A stretch of DNA of 21,025 nucleotides from IMG/VR virus record IMGVR_UViG_3300014050_002791, positions 1 through 21,025 of that record; one strand, written 5' to 3'. The notes beneath the pieces were generated by a model. It saw only the letters and a list, made by a program, of their open reading frames with translations. It searched no databases and was not told where the DNA came from. The stretch comes from a virus. Positions 7,997 to 13,720 of this stretch are shown here, one piece after another. A program made the position numbers and the translations under genes. Position 1 is the stretch's first letter. Every line of letters begins with the position of its first letter.

Positions 7997-8748
7997 ATTT
8001 TAATCACCGACCAAAAATTTCAGAAAAAATAAATCTGCTGATCGACAAAGCGCTGACGGCAGAACATTCAAAACAAAATTCCAGAGATTATCTTGGTGCA
8101 TCGCGTCTTGGTGTTTCATGCAATCGCGCTTTGCAGTTTGAATATACTGATACGCCAAAAGATGAAGATCAAAATTTCACCGGCAGAACTTTAAAAATTT
8201 TTCAGGCTGGTCATGTTTTTGAAGAGTTGATGATCAAGTGGTTAAGGCTTGCTGGCATCAATCTCATCACTCAAAAACAAAACGGAAATCAATTCGGATT
8301 TGCTGTCGCCGGCGGCAAAGTTAAGGGTCATATTGATGGCGTTATTGTTGATGCTCCCGAAGATTTGGATTTCAAATTTCCAATGCTTTGGGAATGCAAA
8401 TCGCTGAATGATAAATCGTGGAAAGAGACGCAAAAAAAAGGTCTCACTGTTTCAAAGCCAATCTATGCGGCACAAGTCGCAATCTATCAGGCTTACATGG
8501 AAAATCAGATTGAAGGCATTTGCAAAAATCCTGCACTCTTCACCGCAATCAACAAAGATACCGCCGAAATTCATTTTGAACTAATCGACTTTGATCAAGA
8601 GCTTGCACAAAAAACCAGTGACAAAGCGGTAAAAATTTTATGCGCCACCGAAGCGCACGAATTGCTTCCACGAATCGCAACTGATTCAACCCACTTTGAG
8701 TGTAAATTTTGTCCGTGGCAGCAACGTTGCTGGGGGTTAAAATTATGA
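7990..8748 (+). CDS. PD-(D/E)XK exonuclease with Cas4/AddB-type four-cysteine site
   Basis: A 252-residue nuclease. LGASRLGVSCNRALQFEY (35-52) is the typical N-terminal motif, and GHIDGVIV followed by LWECKSLNDKSW supplies the catalytic Asp and Glu-x-Lys. Cys44 with Cys238, Cys241 and Cys247 (ECKFCPWQQRCW) matches the 1+3 cysteine pattern that holds an iron-sulfur cluster in Cas4, AddB and related phage nucleases. The start at 7990 has GGAGG eight bases upstream. Such nucleases resect DNA ends to single strands for a recombinase, which fits with the Sak4-like ATPase earlier in the operon. No CRISPR genes or arrays accompany it, so a Cas4 adaptation role is unlikely. Confidence 0.86.
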   Translation: MLDFNHRPKISEKINLLIDKALTAEHSKQNSRDYLGASRLGVSCNRALQFEYTDTPKDEDQNFTGRTLKIFQAGHVFEELMIKWLRLAGINLITQKQNGNQFGFAVAGGKVKGHIDGVIVDAPEDLDFKFPMLWECKSLNDKSWKETQKKGLTVSKPIYAAQVAIYQAYMENQIEGICKNPALFTAINKDTAEIHFELIDFDQELAQKTSDKAVKILCATEAHELLPRIATDSTHFECKFCPWQQRCWGLKL

Positions 8749-10865
8749 ATCACACTCTCGATTTTAACGATGCTAACAACCAACCAAAAGAAAAAGAAAG
8801 AGTTGATGTTGAGCTAATCAGACAGGCACTTTTAAGCAGAATTGAAGATGTTTTGTTTTATCTTCTTCCAAGCGGTCACATCAAAAATAACTGCTTTCAT
8901 ATTGGCAGTATTAAAGGCGAAGCGGGAAAAAGTTTAATCGTTCAGCTTGCCGGTGAAAAGCAAGGTCACTGGTTTGACTTCGCAACAAATCAAGGCGGTG
9001 ATATTTTTGCTTTGTGGGAAGAGGTCAGAGGTTATCACAAGTCAGATTTTAACAAACTTTTAATCGAGATTAGTGAGTGGCTTGGAAGCCCTTTGAGTTC
9101 AGAAATTCAGCAAAAAAATATTCGTCGCAACTTTACTGATGATCTTGGAAAACCAACTGCCAAGTGGGATTATTTTGACAAAAACAATAAGCTGATTGCC
9201 TGTGTTTACCGCTACGACACCGAAGATGGAAAAGAGTTTAGAGTTTGGGATGTAAAAAATCGCAAAGCAAAATCTCCTGATCCACGGCCACTTTACAATA
9301 TTCCTGGAATCACTGCGGCAAAAAAAATCATTCTTGTCGAAGGTGAAAAATCTGCTGACAGTTTAATTGCTTATGGTCTGACCGCGACAACCGCAATGTT
9401 TGGTGCAAATGCTCCAATCAATAAAACTGATTGGTCGCCGCTAATTGGCAAAGAAGTAATCATCTGGCCAGACAATGACGAAGCAGGAAAAGAATACGCG
9501 CAGAAAGTTGCACAACATTTGCTGAAAGTTGCATCTTTTGTTTCACTGATAACACCACCAAAACATAAGGCCCACAAGTGGGATGCTTTTGATGCAGTTG
9601 CCGAAGGCTTCAACATCAATTCGCTTTTTGAAAGTGCTAAAAGTTTTGAGCAAAGATTTCCGCGTTATCTTGGCGATGATTTGTGGAATGATAACAGTCC
9701 AATGCCAGATGATTTAATTTCGCCAAGATTTTTAACACCGCGCGGAATGTTGCTAATTGGCGGTGCGCCGAAAGTTGGTAAGAGTGATTTTCTGATCAAT
9801 TTTCTTATCCACATTGCAGCTGGTGAAAGTTTTCTTGGATTAAAACCACCAAAACCACTTCGTATTTTTTATCTGCAATCAGAGATCGGTTATCACTATC
9901 TGCGCGAGCGCATAAAAAATCTGCAAATTCCAAAAGATATTCTTCAGCGCGGATTAAAAAATTTCTGCGCCACGCCACAAATCGAAACCATTTTAAATGA
10001 TCACGGTGTTGAGATGGCTTACAACACGATTAAGAATTGTTTTGGCGATGATTTGTCACCTGACATTGTGTGTATTGATCCAATTCGAAATGTCTTTGAT
10101 GGCGGCGCAGAAAGCGGCAGTGAGAACGACAACAATGCAATGCTGTTTTTCCTGCAAAATCGCATAGGAAAACTTCGCTCAATGATCAATCCCGACATCG
10201 GAATTATCCTCTGCCATCACACCAAAAAAATAAAAAAGAAGGATGTTGAGGATGATCCATTTCAAGCTTTTTCCGGCGCTGGAAGTTTAAGAAGTTTTTA
10301 CACCAGTGGCTTAATTTTGCATCGCCCCAACGAGCATGAAGCAAAAATTAATCTTTATTTTGAGCTGCGAAATGGTTCATCAATTCCAAAAAAAATCGTT
10401 GAGAAAGTTGATGGAAAATGGGTCGAATTAAATCCGTTTTCTGAAAGATTAATCCAACAAGATTATGGTCAGAAACTAGATGCAGAAAGAGACCGCAAAG
10501 CTGATGTTATTTTGCAGCTGATCGCCGATGAAGCGCTGAAAGGAAATGTTTATGTCGGAAATCAGTTTGCAGAGAAGTTTGAAAACAAAGCTGGATTGGG
10601 ATGCAAAACTACTATTGTCGATAGAGTCTCAGTTCTTGCTACCAAAGGCTATATCAAGTTTAGCCGCAACTTATCAGAGTTTGCAATCCAAGGTGCGAAA
10701 TCAAAATATGGTGTTCTCTGTGTTGAAGGAATGCTGTTCAAAAACTATGATGAAAAGCTAATCCAAGTTCTACCAACACACTTTAAATGCTCCAATAGCG
10801 GCGCTGTTCTTCCGGTTGAAAATCCTGCCGTGTGGATTCTTCATGATGACGAGGTTCAGCCATGA
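8745..10865 (+). CDS. Primase-helicase: Toprim domain fused to RepA-like hexameric helicase
   Basis: This 706-residue replication protein starts at ATG 8745, overlapping the nuclease stop (ATGA), with GGGGG upstream. Residues 1-~110 resemble a primase N-terminal module (HWFDFATNQGGDIFALWEEV) but lack the CHC2 zinc cysteines. A Toprim domain follows, with VEGEKSAD (198-205) and WPDNDEAG (241-248). The RecA-fold domain has Walker A GGAPKVGKS (339-347), Walker B DIVCIDP (440-446) and the helicase motif IILCHHTKK. The final ~120 residues are probably a winged helix. The protein would synthesise primers and unwind the phage origin. The AAGAAACCA repeat array immediately downstream is the natural candidate for its target. 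The missing zinc site is common in phage enzymes of this type. Confidence 0.9.
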   Translation: MNHTLDFNDANNQPKEKERVDVELIRQALLSRIEDVLFYLLPSGHIKNNCFHIGSIKGEAGKSLIVQLAGEKQGHWFDFATNQGGDIFALWEEVRGYHKSDFNKLLIEISEWLGSPLSSEIQQKNIRRNFTDDLGKPTAKWDYFDKNNKLIACVYRYDTEDGKEFRVWDVKNRKAKSPDPRPLYNIPGITAAKKIILVEGEKSADSLIAYGLTATTAMFGANAPINKTDWSPLIGKEVIIWPDNDEAGKEYAQKVAQHLLKVASFVSLITPPKHKAHKWDAFDAVAEGFNINSLFESAKSFEQRFPRYLGDDLWNDNSPMPDDLISPRFLTPRGMLLIGGAPKVGKSDFLINFLIHIAAGESFLGLKPPKPLRIFYLQSEIGYHYLRERIKNLQIPKDILQRGLKNFCATPQIETILNDHGVEMAYNTIKNCFGDDLSPDIVCIDPIRNVFDGGAESGSENDNNAMLFFLQNRIGKLRSMINPDIGIILCHHTKKIKKKDVEDDPFQAFSGAGSLRSFYTSGLILHRPNEHEAKINLYFELRNGSSIPKKIVEKVDGKWVELNPFSERLIQQDYGQKLDAERDRKADVILQLIADEALKGNVYVGNQFAEKFENKAGLGCKTTIVDRVSVLATKGYIKFSRNLSEFAIQGAKSKYGVLCVEGMLFKNYDEKLIQVLPTHFKCSNSGAVLPVENPAVWILHDDEVQP

Positions 10866-11185
10866 AAAATCCAAGAAACCAAATTAAGAAACCAAGAAAC
10901 CAAACCAAGAAATCGGAATTTTGGTTTCTAAGCTGTAATCCTTACTCCCAAGGTAACTCCCAAGAAACCAACCAAGAAACCGCCAAGAAACCAGAATTAA
11001 AAAATTGGCATCAAACAAAAACTCCGCAAAGCCTTGTGGGACAAGGAATTCCGCAAGAAACCAGAAAACCAAAATCTTTTCAAAAAAATTTGTCAATTTT
11101 AGTGTCTGGGAAGCGTCTATTTTACTGTGCTCGTAGGTTATTTTCCAAGAAACCAACTGCACCCCCTCCATTACATGGAGGGTAA
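10862..11185 (+). CDS. Doubtful small ORF across the AAGAAACCA repeat array
   Basis: This open frame starts with ATGA on the primase-helicase stop and would encode 107 residues rich in Lys, Asn, Gln, Thr and Pro (KKPRNQ, SQETNQETAKKPE). The apparent peptide repeats come from one DNA repeat, AAGAAACCA, read in all three frames. This indicates selection on the DNA rather than on the protein. There is no recognisable domain, and the tail is basic (GKRLFYCARRLFSKKP). The stop lies inside the hairpin cluster at 11164-11212. It may be translated by coupling yet functionally secondary to a replication origin, or be no gene at all. Confidence 0.35.
   Translation: MKNPRNQIKKPRNQTKKSEFWFLSCNPYSQGNSQETNQETAKKPELKNWHQTKTPQSLVGQGIPQETRKPKSFQKNLSILVSGKRLFYCARRLFSKKPTAPPPLHGG
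10873..11155 (+). repeat. Iteron-like array of AAGAAACCA, candidate replication origin
   Basis: Seven exact direct copies of AAGAAACCA begin at 10873, 10886, 10894, 10962, 10985, 11055 and 11147. Near-copies lie at 10907 and 10974, and an inverted near-copy (TGGTTTCT) lies at 10922-10929. The copies fall in all three reading frames of the overlapping ORF, so they are conserved as DNA. The array sits directly after a primase-helicase gene, where many phages and plasmids keep the origin. AT-rich DNA between the copies could serve for unwinding. Binding by the replication protein is inferred. Confidence 0.7.
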
Positions 11186-11212
11186 ATATACCCTCCATGG
11201 ATGGAATGGAGG
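11164..11212. promoter_or_regulatory. Four alternating CCCTCCAT half-sites forming alternative hairpins
   Basis: CCCTCCAT (11164-11171), ATGGAGGG (11175-11182), CCCTCCAT (11191-11198) and ATGGAGG (11206-11212) alternate in orientation. Pairs 1-2 and 3-4 each form a hairpin. Pair 2-3 forms a longer perfect stem, CATGGAGGGTA with TACCCTCCATG (11174-11184 and 11189-11199, four-base loop). The structures are mutually exclusive. There is no following T-run, so it is not an ordinary terminator. It could be a cooperative operator for the adjacent DUF6362 gene, part of the origin, or an RNA switch between the early operon and the next gene. Confidence 0.6.
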
Positions 11213-11270
11213 TTCCGATTTTTCGGCTTCCAGATTTTGCAATTTTACCAACAAAAAAATTTGAGAAAAA

Positions 11271-11654
11271 ATGAAAGAAATTCAAAACGAGAGATTCAGC
11301 GAAGAACAAGTCATCACAATTTTTAAAGAGGCAGCAAGAACTTTGGAGAAGTTGCCAGCAGTTAGAATTCAAGGCTATTTCAACGCATGGCCTGAGATAA
11401 TCTATACTGAAAGAGAGGTCGCAAGAATGGATCAAAAAAGCAAAGTTTGGCGCGCAACTCCTGATGCAATTTCGCGAATGGAAAAAGCGATTGATTGGTT
11501 GAGCCTTCTTGAAGACGTAGTTGAGAGAAAAATTGTGTGGATGAGAGCGAGTAATATTCCTTGGGAAATTATCAAAAAAACTTTCGGATTTTCACGAGTA
11601 ACTGCGAATAAAAAATACAAAAACGCCATAAAATTTATTACTAACAATTACTAA
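11271..11654 (+). CDS. DUF6362-like helix-turn-helix protein
   Basis: A 127-residue protein with the layout of the DUF6362 phage family: an N-terminal helical part (SEEQVITIFKEAARTLEKLP), a conserved AWPEI segment (residues ~44-48), then ATPDAISRMEKAIDWL. The C-terminal helix-turn-helix is IPWEIIKKTFGFSRVTANKKYKNAI, resembling sigma-region-4-like HTHs. GAG lies close upstream of ATG 11271. In prophages I know this family from the zone between the replication and packaging modules, where a late-gene regulator is expected; that function is unproven. It follows the alternating hairpin cluster by about 60 bp, which may be its operator or leader. Confidence 0.75.
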   Translation: MKEIQNERFSEEQVITIFKEAARTLEKLPAVRIQGYFNAWPEIIYTEREVARMDQKSKVWRATPDAISRMEKAIDWLSLLEDVVERKIVWMRASNIPWEIIKKTFGFSRVTANKKYKNAIKFITNNY

Positions 11655-12404: not shown

Positions 12405-12490
12405 GGTGCGCAGTTGGTGCGCATTTTTAAGTTAGAACCAATAAACAACAGCATTCGCAAGGTGCGCACCTGAAGTGATTTAGGTGCGCA
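12405..12490 (+). repeat. Four copies of GGTGCGCA
   Basis: GGTGCGCA occurs at 12405, 12416, 12461 and 12483, two per hairpin. The core TGCGCA is self-complementary. The four copies are explained mostly by the two hairpins built from the same sequence, but the sharing between the two suggests duplication of one terminator, or a second role as binding sites. Confidence 0.6.
12407..12428 (+). terminator. Weak hairpin plus T-run (first of a tandem pair)
   Basis: TGCGCA at 12407-12412 and 12418-12423 can pair across a five-base loop, with TTTTT following at 12424-12428. The six-base stem is short, and because TGCGCA is itself palindromic the two copies could instead be protein-binding sites. It shares its core with the stronger terminator 40 bp downstream. 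Confidence 0.4.
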
Positions 12491-12523: not shown

Positions 12524-13720
12524 GTGTGGATTTACATCCCTTCAGAATTTTATCCCTCTGCTCAGGAGTTGGCGGCATCGAGCTTGGATTTAAACTCGCA
12601 GAGCCAACTTCTCGAACAGTTTGTTATGTCGAGATCGAAGCCTTTGCGTGCGAAATCTTGGCTCGCCGCATGGAAGAAAAAAGATTGGATGCAGCGCCTA
12701 TTTGGACGAATCTTAAAACCTTCGATTGTCTGCCTTGGCGTGGAAAAGTGGATTGCATCACTGGCGGATATCCCTGCCAGCCGTTTAGTGTTGCTGGAAA
12801 AAAACTTGGAAAAGATGACCCAAGACATCTCTGGCCAGACATCAAAAGACTCATCACAGAAATTGAGCCACCAATCTGCTTCTTTGAAAATGTTTCCAAC
12901 CATTTACGAGTTGGATTTGAAGAAGTCGCAAATGACCTACGACAGTTGGGTTATCAAATTAAGGCAGGCTTGTTTACAGCGGCAGAAGTTGGTGCGCCTC
13001 ACAAGAGAGAAAGATTATTCATCTTGGCCTACAGTGATAGTTTCGGATTACCTTTGCAATCCGACAGAAACGCCGCAGCGTTGGAAAGAAAGAGCGCAGG
13101 AGAAGAAAACGGAAGGAATCAATTTACACAAACCGCTGAGGATTGTTGCTCAAGAAGCATGGCCGACAATAACAGTTACCGATGCTTCGGTGATGAAAGC
13201 AAGACCTCCGGAAAAGATGATCAGGAAAGATGGTCGCAACATGTTAAGGAATCCATCGCTGGCGGAAACGATTTTGCAACCCGTGAATTTTCCGAAGAGC
13301 AAGGAAGACCTGAAGAACAAGAATCAGGGTTTGCCTTATCAGACGAAGCAAAGCTGGCCGACTGTAAGAACATCTTCTGCAAATGGTGCGAGCGCCAAAG
13401 AAGTGGAAGCAGGAAATCCGAAGCAAAGGCTGGAAGTTATGATAACGAACTGGGCGACTCCAACAACGAGAGATTGGAAAGACACGGCCAATGCCAATGT
13501 TCCGGTGAAATCCCTGCTTGGCCGCCAAGCCCCTCGGACTATGAAAGATGGGGTAGAATTTCAGATGACCTTAAACCCGCGCTTCACCGAATGGCTGATG
13601 GGATGGCCTTTAGGGTGGACAGAATTCGAGCTTGCGGAAACGGAGTGGTTCCACTGGTTGCAGCGTATGCGTGGCGAACTCTTACGAATGGAATGTATCT
13701 TACAAAAGACAATTAACTGA
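12524..13720 (+). CDS. Candidate overprinted gene inside the cytosine methyltransferase gene
   Basis: A second frame of 398 codons stays open from two bases before the methyltransferase start to four bases after its stop. Its product contains four W-[PA]-T units (Trp168, Trp213, Trp278, Trp310; the last is NWATPTTRDWKD), followed by LNPRFTEWLMGWPLGWTEF (350-368). I recall similar protein segments next to or within phage cytosine methyltransferase genes, often annotated as hypothetical; I cannot check this here. Start is GTG 12524 or perhaps ATG 12626. Part of the similarity may be a shadow of conserved methyltransferase motifs: GWTEFELAET is the shifted reading of RVDRIRACGN. Whether it is translated is unknown. 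Confidence 0.4.
   Translation: MWIYIPSEFYPSAQELAASSLDLNSQSQLLEQFVMSRSKPLRAKSWLAAWKKKDWMQRLFGRILKPSIVCLGVEKWIASLADIPASRLVLLEKNLEKMTQDISGQTSKDSSQKLSHQSASLKMFPTIYELDLKKSQMTYDSWVIKLRQACLQRQKLVRLTREKDYSSWPTVIVSDYLCNPTETPQRWKERAQEKKTEGINLHKPLRIVAQEAWPTITVTDASVMKARPPEKMIRKDGRNMLRNPSLAETILQPVNFPKSKEDLKNKNQGLPYQTKQSWPTVRTSSANGASAKEVEAGNPKQRLEVMITNWATPTTRDWKDTANANVPVKSLLGRQAPRTMKDGVEFQMTLNPRFTEWLMGWPLGWTEFELAETEWFHWLQRMRGELLRMECILQKTIN
12526..13716 (+). CDS. DNA (cytosine-5-)-methyltransferase
   Basis: A 396-residue C5-methyltransferase that transfers a methyl group from S-adenosylmethionine to cytosine in a short target. Motif I is LSLCSGVGGIELGF (9-22). Motif IV is GGYPCQPFS with catalytic Cys84, motif VI is ENV (121-123) and motif VIII is PHKRERLF (158-165). 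Motifs IX-X are RVDRIRACGNGVVPLVAAYAW (363-383). The target-recognition region (~170-350) is unusually loose and contains recurring LAD/LGD-type segments. The only in-frame start is GTG 12526. No cognate endonuclease is nearby, so phage-DNA protection or regulation is likeliest. Almost the whole gene is overlapped by another long open frame shifted by one base, and the strange target-recognition composition may reflect that. Confidence 0.93.
   Translation: MDLHPFRILSLCSGVGGIELGFKLAEPTSRTVCYVEIEAFACEILARRMEEKRLDAAPIWTNLKTFDCLPWRGKVDCITGGYPCQPFSVAGKKLGKDDPRHLWPDIKRLITEIEPPICFFENVSNHLRVGFEEVANDLRQLGYQIKAGLFTAAEVGAPHKRERLFILAYSDSFGLPLQSDRNAAALERKSAGEENGRNQFTQTAEDCCSRSMADNNSYRCFGDESKTSGKDDQERWSQHVKESIAGGNDFATREFSEEQGRPEEQESGFALSDEAKLADCKNIFCKWCERQRSGSRKSEAKAGSYDNELGDSNNERLERHGQCQCSGEIPAWPPSPSDYERWGRISDDLKPALHRMADGMAFRVDRIRACGNGVVPLVAAYAWRTLTNGMYLTKDN

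Follow-up and report, generated by a model that had tools for sequence, protein, structure and literature searches.

The viral record IMGVR_UViG_3300014050_002791, taken here as a single window of 21,025 bases, carries a cluster of short repeats directly 3' of a gene for a primase-helicase, and this cluster had been put forward in a first-pass annotation, made from the sequence alone, as a candidate origin of phage replication. The window also encodes an integrase, an S24 repressor-like gene, a helicase, an exonuclease, two DNA methyltransferases and terminase genes. The primase-helicase has 706 residues, with a Toprim domain, an AAA_25 helicase core and a predicted C-terminal winged helix, and its TGA stop codon overlaps the ATG (10862) of a 107-codon open reading frame (ORF) that runs over the repeats. 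The features of the locus, all on the + strand, are as follows.

8745..10865, +, primase-helicase and proposed initiator (phrog_239/phrog_13004; PF13481 and PF01751)
10470..10862, +, C-terminal domain of the primase-helicase, residues 576-706, a winged helix as predicted by AlphaFold2
10605..10646, +, predicted recognition helix, residues 621-634, beginning K T T I V D R (helix 46-59 of the model)
10671..10673, +, codon of Leu643, after the first wing strand; best single column in the association test described below
10862..11185, +, 107-codon ORF over the array, an open frame with little amino-acid constraint (0 stops in 10/10 clade loci; ratio of non-synonymous to synonymous change, pN/pS, 0.82)
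10871..11156, +, iteron-like repeat array of seven exact copies of AAGAAACCA, near copies at 10907 and 10974 and an inverted copy at 10922-10930
11165..11212, +, hairpin element 3' of the array (inner arms 11174-11184/11189-11199; outer arms 11165-11176/11201-11212)
11271..11654, +, DUF6362 gene (PF19889), 3' of the hairpin element

The array holds 10 copies in about 285 base pairs (bp). Exact copies of AAGAAACCA start at 10873, 10886, 10894, 10962, 10985, 11055 and 11147, and are joined by a one-mismatch copy, AAGAAACCG, at 10974, a two-mismatch copy, AAGAAATCG, at 10907 and the inverted copy TAGAAACCA. All of the copies claimed between 10873 and 11155 by the first-pass annotation (seven exact, two near and one inverted) were found in their places, confirming the reported array as real. 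It had also been claimed that the copies occupy all three frames of the ORF, as they do: relative to the ORF start, the exact copies fall, in order, in frames 2, 0, 2, 1, 0, 1 and 0 (frame 0 at 10886, 10985 and 11147; frame 1 at 10962 and 11055; frame 2 at 10873 and 10894). In the array, the commonest 8-mer occurred 8 times in 282 bp. When the window was dinucleotide-shuffled 100 times, the highest count of any 8-mer within 300 bp was 3 in 91 cases and 4 in the other 9, and a chance cluster was therefore rejected. With up to one mismatch, the 9-mer matched 22 times in the window, 9 of them inside the array; the 13 matches outside it were near chance (12.0 expected). No Rfam model matched anywhere in the window at gathering score, so a known RNA family was likewise rejected as the identity of the array.

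Relatives were collected via the primase-helicase (3 viral and 5 bacterial contigs at 72-92% identity) and further viral contigs were reached via the protein tail and via the RuvC-like gene that, in many relatives, holds the position of the DUF6362 gene behind the array (best 80 RuvC matches); DUF6362 itself, tried as a handle for finding relatives, gave no locus. Some match to the primase-helicase was present in 110 of 343 genomes of the order of genome G007, and named-phage relatives include Wolbachia phage WO, at 34-47% identity. A profile built on the tail yielded 104 distinct combinations of a tail and the DNA downstream of it, of which 98 were scored (6 regions under 250 nucleotides being dropped) and 70 were kept as representatives after removal of near-identical or gappy tails. 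Each region was subjected to a two-strand motif search over the 430 nucleotides behind the gene, judged against 20 dinucleotide shuffles of the same stretch. An array beating all 20 of its own shuffles was held by 86/98 downstream regions, compared to 11/97 for the last 430 nucleotides of the gene and 14/91 for the stretch 430-860 nucleotides behind it. An array behind the primase-helicase is a trait of the family. The relatives' arrays comprise 5 to 12 copies over 200-300 bp, and many relatives carry copies on both strands.

The repeated word differed from relative to relative. The window has AAGAAACC; locus L005, whose primase-helicase is 89% identical to that of the window, has AAGATTCC; L006 and L013 have AAGTTTCC; L007, L008 and L010 have AAGAATCC; L009 has AAGTTCAG; and L003 (92% identical) shows AAGATT and AAGATC forms. 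Among more distant words are AAGTTGGC or CAGTTGGC (L088 group), AAGTTCCGC (L079), GAAGTTGGGA (L081), CAGAATCC (L123), CAGAATGCA (L142), CCAGTTTGG (L117 and L146) and AGTGGGGT (L027). The word thus changes even between primase-helicases that are 89-92% identical and, in close relatives, the DNA between the copies can still be aligned by eye while the copies themselves have changed in concert. Most words share a constant [AC]AG, and it is the bases following it that vary.

AlphaFold2 modelling of the last 131 residues of the primase-helicase, with 57 aligned relatives, predicted a winged helix (mean predicted local distance difference test score 88.6), in which the third helix comprises residues 621-634 with a wing behind it. 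A fold search with the tail returned generic winged helices only (a fold absent from its list is not thereby excluded), and a search for solved structures related by sequence to the primase-helicase gave none of note, no solved RepA being matched. To relate tail and word, 9-residue windows of the tail were compared with word difference, the rest of the tail being allowed for, in the 62 representatives with an array above shuffles. The windows ranked 1 to 4 of 111 all covered the beginning of the third helix (partial r 0.34-0.35), and the best single columns included 643, 622, 621 and 625. The pairs are non-independent and partial correlations on distances inflate significance with nested relatives, so reliance was placed on window rank rather than on p values. 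At matched relatedness, pairs with similar helices showed greater similarity of words in three bands out of four, and the remaining band contained a single contrasting pair. Within the window clade, residue 625 is Val with AAGAAACC, Gly with AAGATTCC, Asp with AAGAATCC (three loci), Asn with AAGTTTCC (two loci), or Ser, and residue 643 is Leu or Trp. Helices of the form ER[ST]IRER pair with AAGTTGGC-type words across groups that share about 43% of the remaining domain, phage WO included. Comparison across relatives thus supports the view that the array word tracks the recognition helix of the predicted C-terminal winged helix, with exceptions.

These exceptions, and some other data, weigh against reading the array as an origin bound by this tail. 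The stricter test, on 31 disjoint nearest-neighbour pairs, failed to single out the helix, word similarity going with the rest of the domain at 0.72 and with the helix at 0.63, and the best windows lying elsewhere. L049 (Asn625) has the helix of L006 but a degenerate AAGAATCC array and not the L006 word; it carries Leu instead of Trp at 643, and the mismatch is at best explained by that residue. L028/L034 and L051/L035 share helices but not words, and L055 has the helix without the word. Twelve of the 98 downstream regions had no array above shuffles. The guanine-cytosine (GC) skew of the window did not switch at the array. Nearby, the most easily melted 50 bp, at 11232, stood only at the 98.6th percentile, with weaker places elsewhere in the window. 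The first-pass proposal that the array is the binding site of the winged-helix tail is supported by comparison, the tail being a predicted winged helix whose helix the word follows, within the limit set by the disjoint-pair test.

Genome G007 was also found to hold two family members, L049 (G007:C23) and L010 (G007:C52), with related words, that of L049 being degenerate; the L049 array has perhaps been caught mid-change.

Iteron origins lying behind initiator helicases are already known. The helicases of Staphylococcus aureus pathogenicity islands (SaPI), of staphylococcal cassette chromosomes (SCC) and of P4 are of the superfamily 3 (SF3)/AAA+ kind, and P4 alpha is a fused primase-helicase-origin-binding protein that works with ori and the cis replication region (crr). 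The protein studied here differs from all three in having AAA_25 fused to a Toprim primase, with no SF3 family found in it by Pfam at E 0.001, where AAA_25 and Toprim were matched. According to the part of PMC7581432 that concerns them, the C-terminal domains of SaPI Rep and SCC Cch2 bind iterons just behind their own genes. The arrangement is alike here, a helicase with a C-terminal DNA-binding domain and short repeats just downstream of its own gene, although the domain and the binding are predicted in our case and the array lies inside an open frame in many relatives, unlike that of SaPI or SCC. Phage-inducible chromosomal islands (PICIs) are described in a section of PMC6092414 as carrying a pri-rep-ori module in which an AT-rich region is surrounded by iterons; the present locus differs from PICI and P4 in its helicase core, and an AT-rich tract between two iteron sets is not seen here. 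On the best reading, by analogy, the primase-helicase would work like SaPI/P4-type initiators with a different helicase core, and it is likened to them rather than classed among them because no SF3 core was found by Pfam.

We consider that the array is probably an iteron-type replication origin bound by the winged-helix tail of the upstream primase-helicase. Binding is supported by comparison of relatives, and the start of replication at the array is what we infer, an origin being the natural reading by analogy with the SaPI and PICI origins directly behind the rep gene. The same tail might instead bind the array for autoregulation or copy control of the replication operon, as an operator or crr-like site, with the origin elsewhere; the array is indeed part of what is transcribed in its own operon and is overlapped by an open frame, and the lack of a skew switch suits this too, but it stands behind the gene and not at a promoter, its 5 to 12 copies over 200-300 bp resemble an origin more than an operator, SaPI and PICI origins occupy the same place, and an AT-rich tract follows the array in phage WO. 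We judge such a control site unlikely. Less likely still is that the array is the target of another factor (a host protein, a restriction-modification system or a phage repressor) or acts as RNA, in antitermination for instance. Across many genomes the array accompanies the primase-helicase and its word tracks that protein's recognition helix, copies on both strands suit DNA better than RNA, and the Rfam search was empty, against which may be set the hairpin element following the array and the presence in the window of an S24 repressor-like protein and two DNA methyltransferases.

The ORF over the array had been called weak in the first-pass annotation, which held that the repeat is maintained as DNA. 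Its amino-acid sequence is indeed hardly constrained, but the frame is kept open in close relatives, which makes the label too simple. In the window clade, the ATG frame had no stop over 83 codons in 10/10 loci, compared to 31 and 31 stops in the other frames, and the frame over the array was also open in 14/14 loci of the L088 group and 5/5 of the L075 group, where the other frames have stops. An ORF of at least 70 codons was present in 45 of the 70 representatives, and in 34 its length was reached by at most 2 of 50 shuffles. Substitutions were spread almost evenly over codon positions 1, 2 and 3 (1589, 1414 and 1677, summed over 36 pairs), and pN/pS of the ORF was 0.82 (36 pairs, from 9 of the 10 window-clade loci, L009 being excluded as its ATG lies elsewhere), 0.88 and 0.96 in the three groups, compared to 0.22 where this frame encodes RuvC. 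The closest pair, L007/L010, gave a pN/pS of 0.37 on 28 differences, which leaves room for some constraint on recent changes to the ORF. A conserved peptide was rejected as the reason for the array on these ratios (0.82-0.96).

Seven relatives, picked for absence of the ORF, and Wolbachia phage WO have the array without the ORF, so the repeat was retained where the ORF was lost, which supports its being maintained as DNA, as do the use of three frames and the near-equal change at the three codon positions. The reverse case, a conserved peptide with the repeat lost, was not seen: in the window clade, word and peptide both change while the frame stays open. It is most improbable that the repeats are a by-product of repetitive coding sequence or selfish short repeats. 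The open frame in the window clade and the L088 and L075 groups would suit such an explanation, but three frames are used, change is even across codon positions, pN/pS is far from that of RuvC, arrays occur without the ORF and the word follows a DNA-binding helix; a mere coding repeat is refuted in the main by the frames, the pN/pS values and the arrays without an ORF. The comparison suggests that some lineages hold the frame open, for translation or coupling, without preserving the peptide itself. It is unusual for an origin to be overlapped by a reading frame that is open yet unconstrained.

In loci of the L088 group, L091, L098, L103 and L135 among them, the ORF frame passes from the array into the RuvC-like gene with no stop in between. 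The resolvase of this group may thus carry a long N-terminal extension encoded by the array.

As a mechanism, the tail would bind each copy of about 10 bp through the mostly constant [AC]AG and then about five variable bases, the latter being read by the start of the helix (residues 621-627) together with the region of residue 643. Occupancy of many copies would concentrate the protein at its own gene's 3' end, and this assembly would help to open nearby AT-rich DNA, upon which the helicase could be loaded and the Toprim primase could prime, with the hairpins that follow the array as possible sites. The initiator would change along with the word, giving each phage type a private origin. A bolder proposal, which we find possible but rather doubtful, is that the origin lies inside a frame open to ribosomes without a conserved product, such that transcription and translation traffic toward the resolvase would help or time initiation, and that the iteron word and the helix would be repeatedly rewritten together as a code shielding related prophages from firing, or being attacked, via each other's origins.

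Word turnover may be driven by conflict, by analogy with other systems. As reported in part of PMC8263062, the initiator DNA-binding domain and the iterons of PLE satellites covary, and an initiator-mimicking phage nuclease selects for change. PLE RepA, from satellites of Vibrio cholerae, differs from the present protein in being RepA_N-type without a primase-helicase and in having three iterons of about 30 bp, where up to 12 of about 10 bp are found here. In geminiviruses, according to a portion of PMC12548392, iterons keep their positions while their sequences have diversified among closely related viruses and fit the cognate Rep, although that Rep is a rolling-circle protein of single-stranded DNA viruses, unrelated to the primase-helicase here. 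What is new at the present locus is the other helicase core, the open and weakly constrained frame and the rich series of paired changes in helix and word; no prior description of such an array or origin was found in the open-licence literature. The dozens of natural helix-word pairs form a data set on change of winged-helix specificity and on origin diversification.

The layout also resembles oriV of plasmid RSF1010, in having a RepA-like helicase with iterons and hairpins nearby, and the annotation of one WO record reads 'similar to RepA of plasmid RSF1010'. RSF1010 combines iterons, a RepA helicase and single-strand initiation (ssi) hairpins, with a separate RepC binding the iterons; the ssi sites are its priming sites. 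Iteron binding is here proposed for the primase-helicase tail instead of a separate RepC. In the window clade, a hairpin element with GGAGG-bearing arms was observed between the array and the next gene. Its stems vary in sequence but still pair in a few places, the nested pairing being retained among relatives with few compensatory changes. For folding as two separate hairpins, the score was reached in 162/500 shuffles, showing no covariation beyond shuffles, and for the nested folding it was reached in 6/500, a weak signal since only two pairs covaried among 9 distinct rows. Hairpins at least 8 bp long occurred in 37 of 69 regions (69 of the 70 representatives entering the count) compared to 1.6 expected, some of these being pairs of inverted iterons. 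A hairpin-pattern search returned 6 stretches, with L013 and L015 (on the contig of L005) as family members; the other matches, L011, L012, L014 and L016, were rejected as relatives, their flanks looking unrelated. The hairpins may serve as priming sites, or may control translation of the next gene, on thin evidence in either case.

In Wolbachia phage WO the helix reads SERSIRER, and ten sites resembling AAG[AT]TGGC lie immediately downstream of RepA, which provides a testable candidate origin and initiator for this phage and its relatives. The word 'iteron' is absent from the WO genomics paper PMC9203015, and a search for literature joining Wolbachia, phage WO and iterons matched only a Francisella phage with a lambda-like origin. 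In two WO loci (L172 and L173), a long AT tract with TA runs lies behind the array, no conserved ORF lies over it and only short hypothetical genes are annotated there.

Two further observations were made downstream in the window. A second short array, at 12405-12490, shortly precedes the C5 methyltransferase gene and contains GGTGCGCA five times (four on the + strand and one on the -), where 0.42 would be expected. GTGCGCAC occurs three times behind the primase region of L024 with flanks similar to those of the GGTGCGCA array; the latter may act as an operator for the methyltransferase or late genes. At 12524-13720, two long frames overlap over their entire length, the one at 12526 encoding a 396-codon C5 cytosine methyltransferase and the one at 12524, of 398 codons, itself matching PHROG families that carry a DNA methyltransferase annotation (best E 1.1e-16), which makes dual coding possible.
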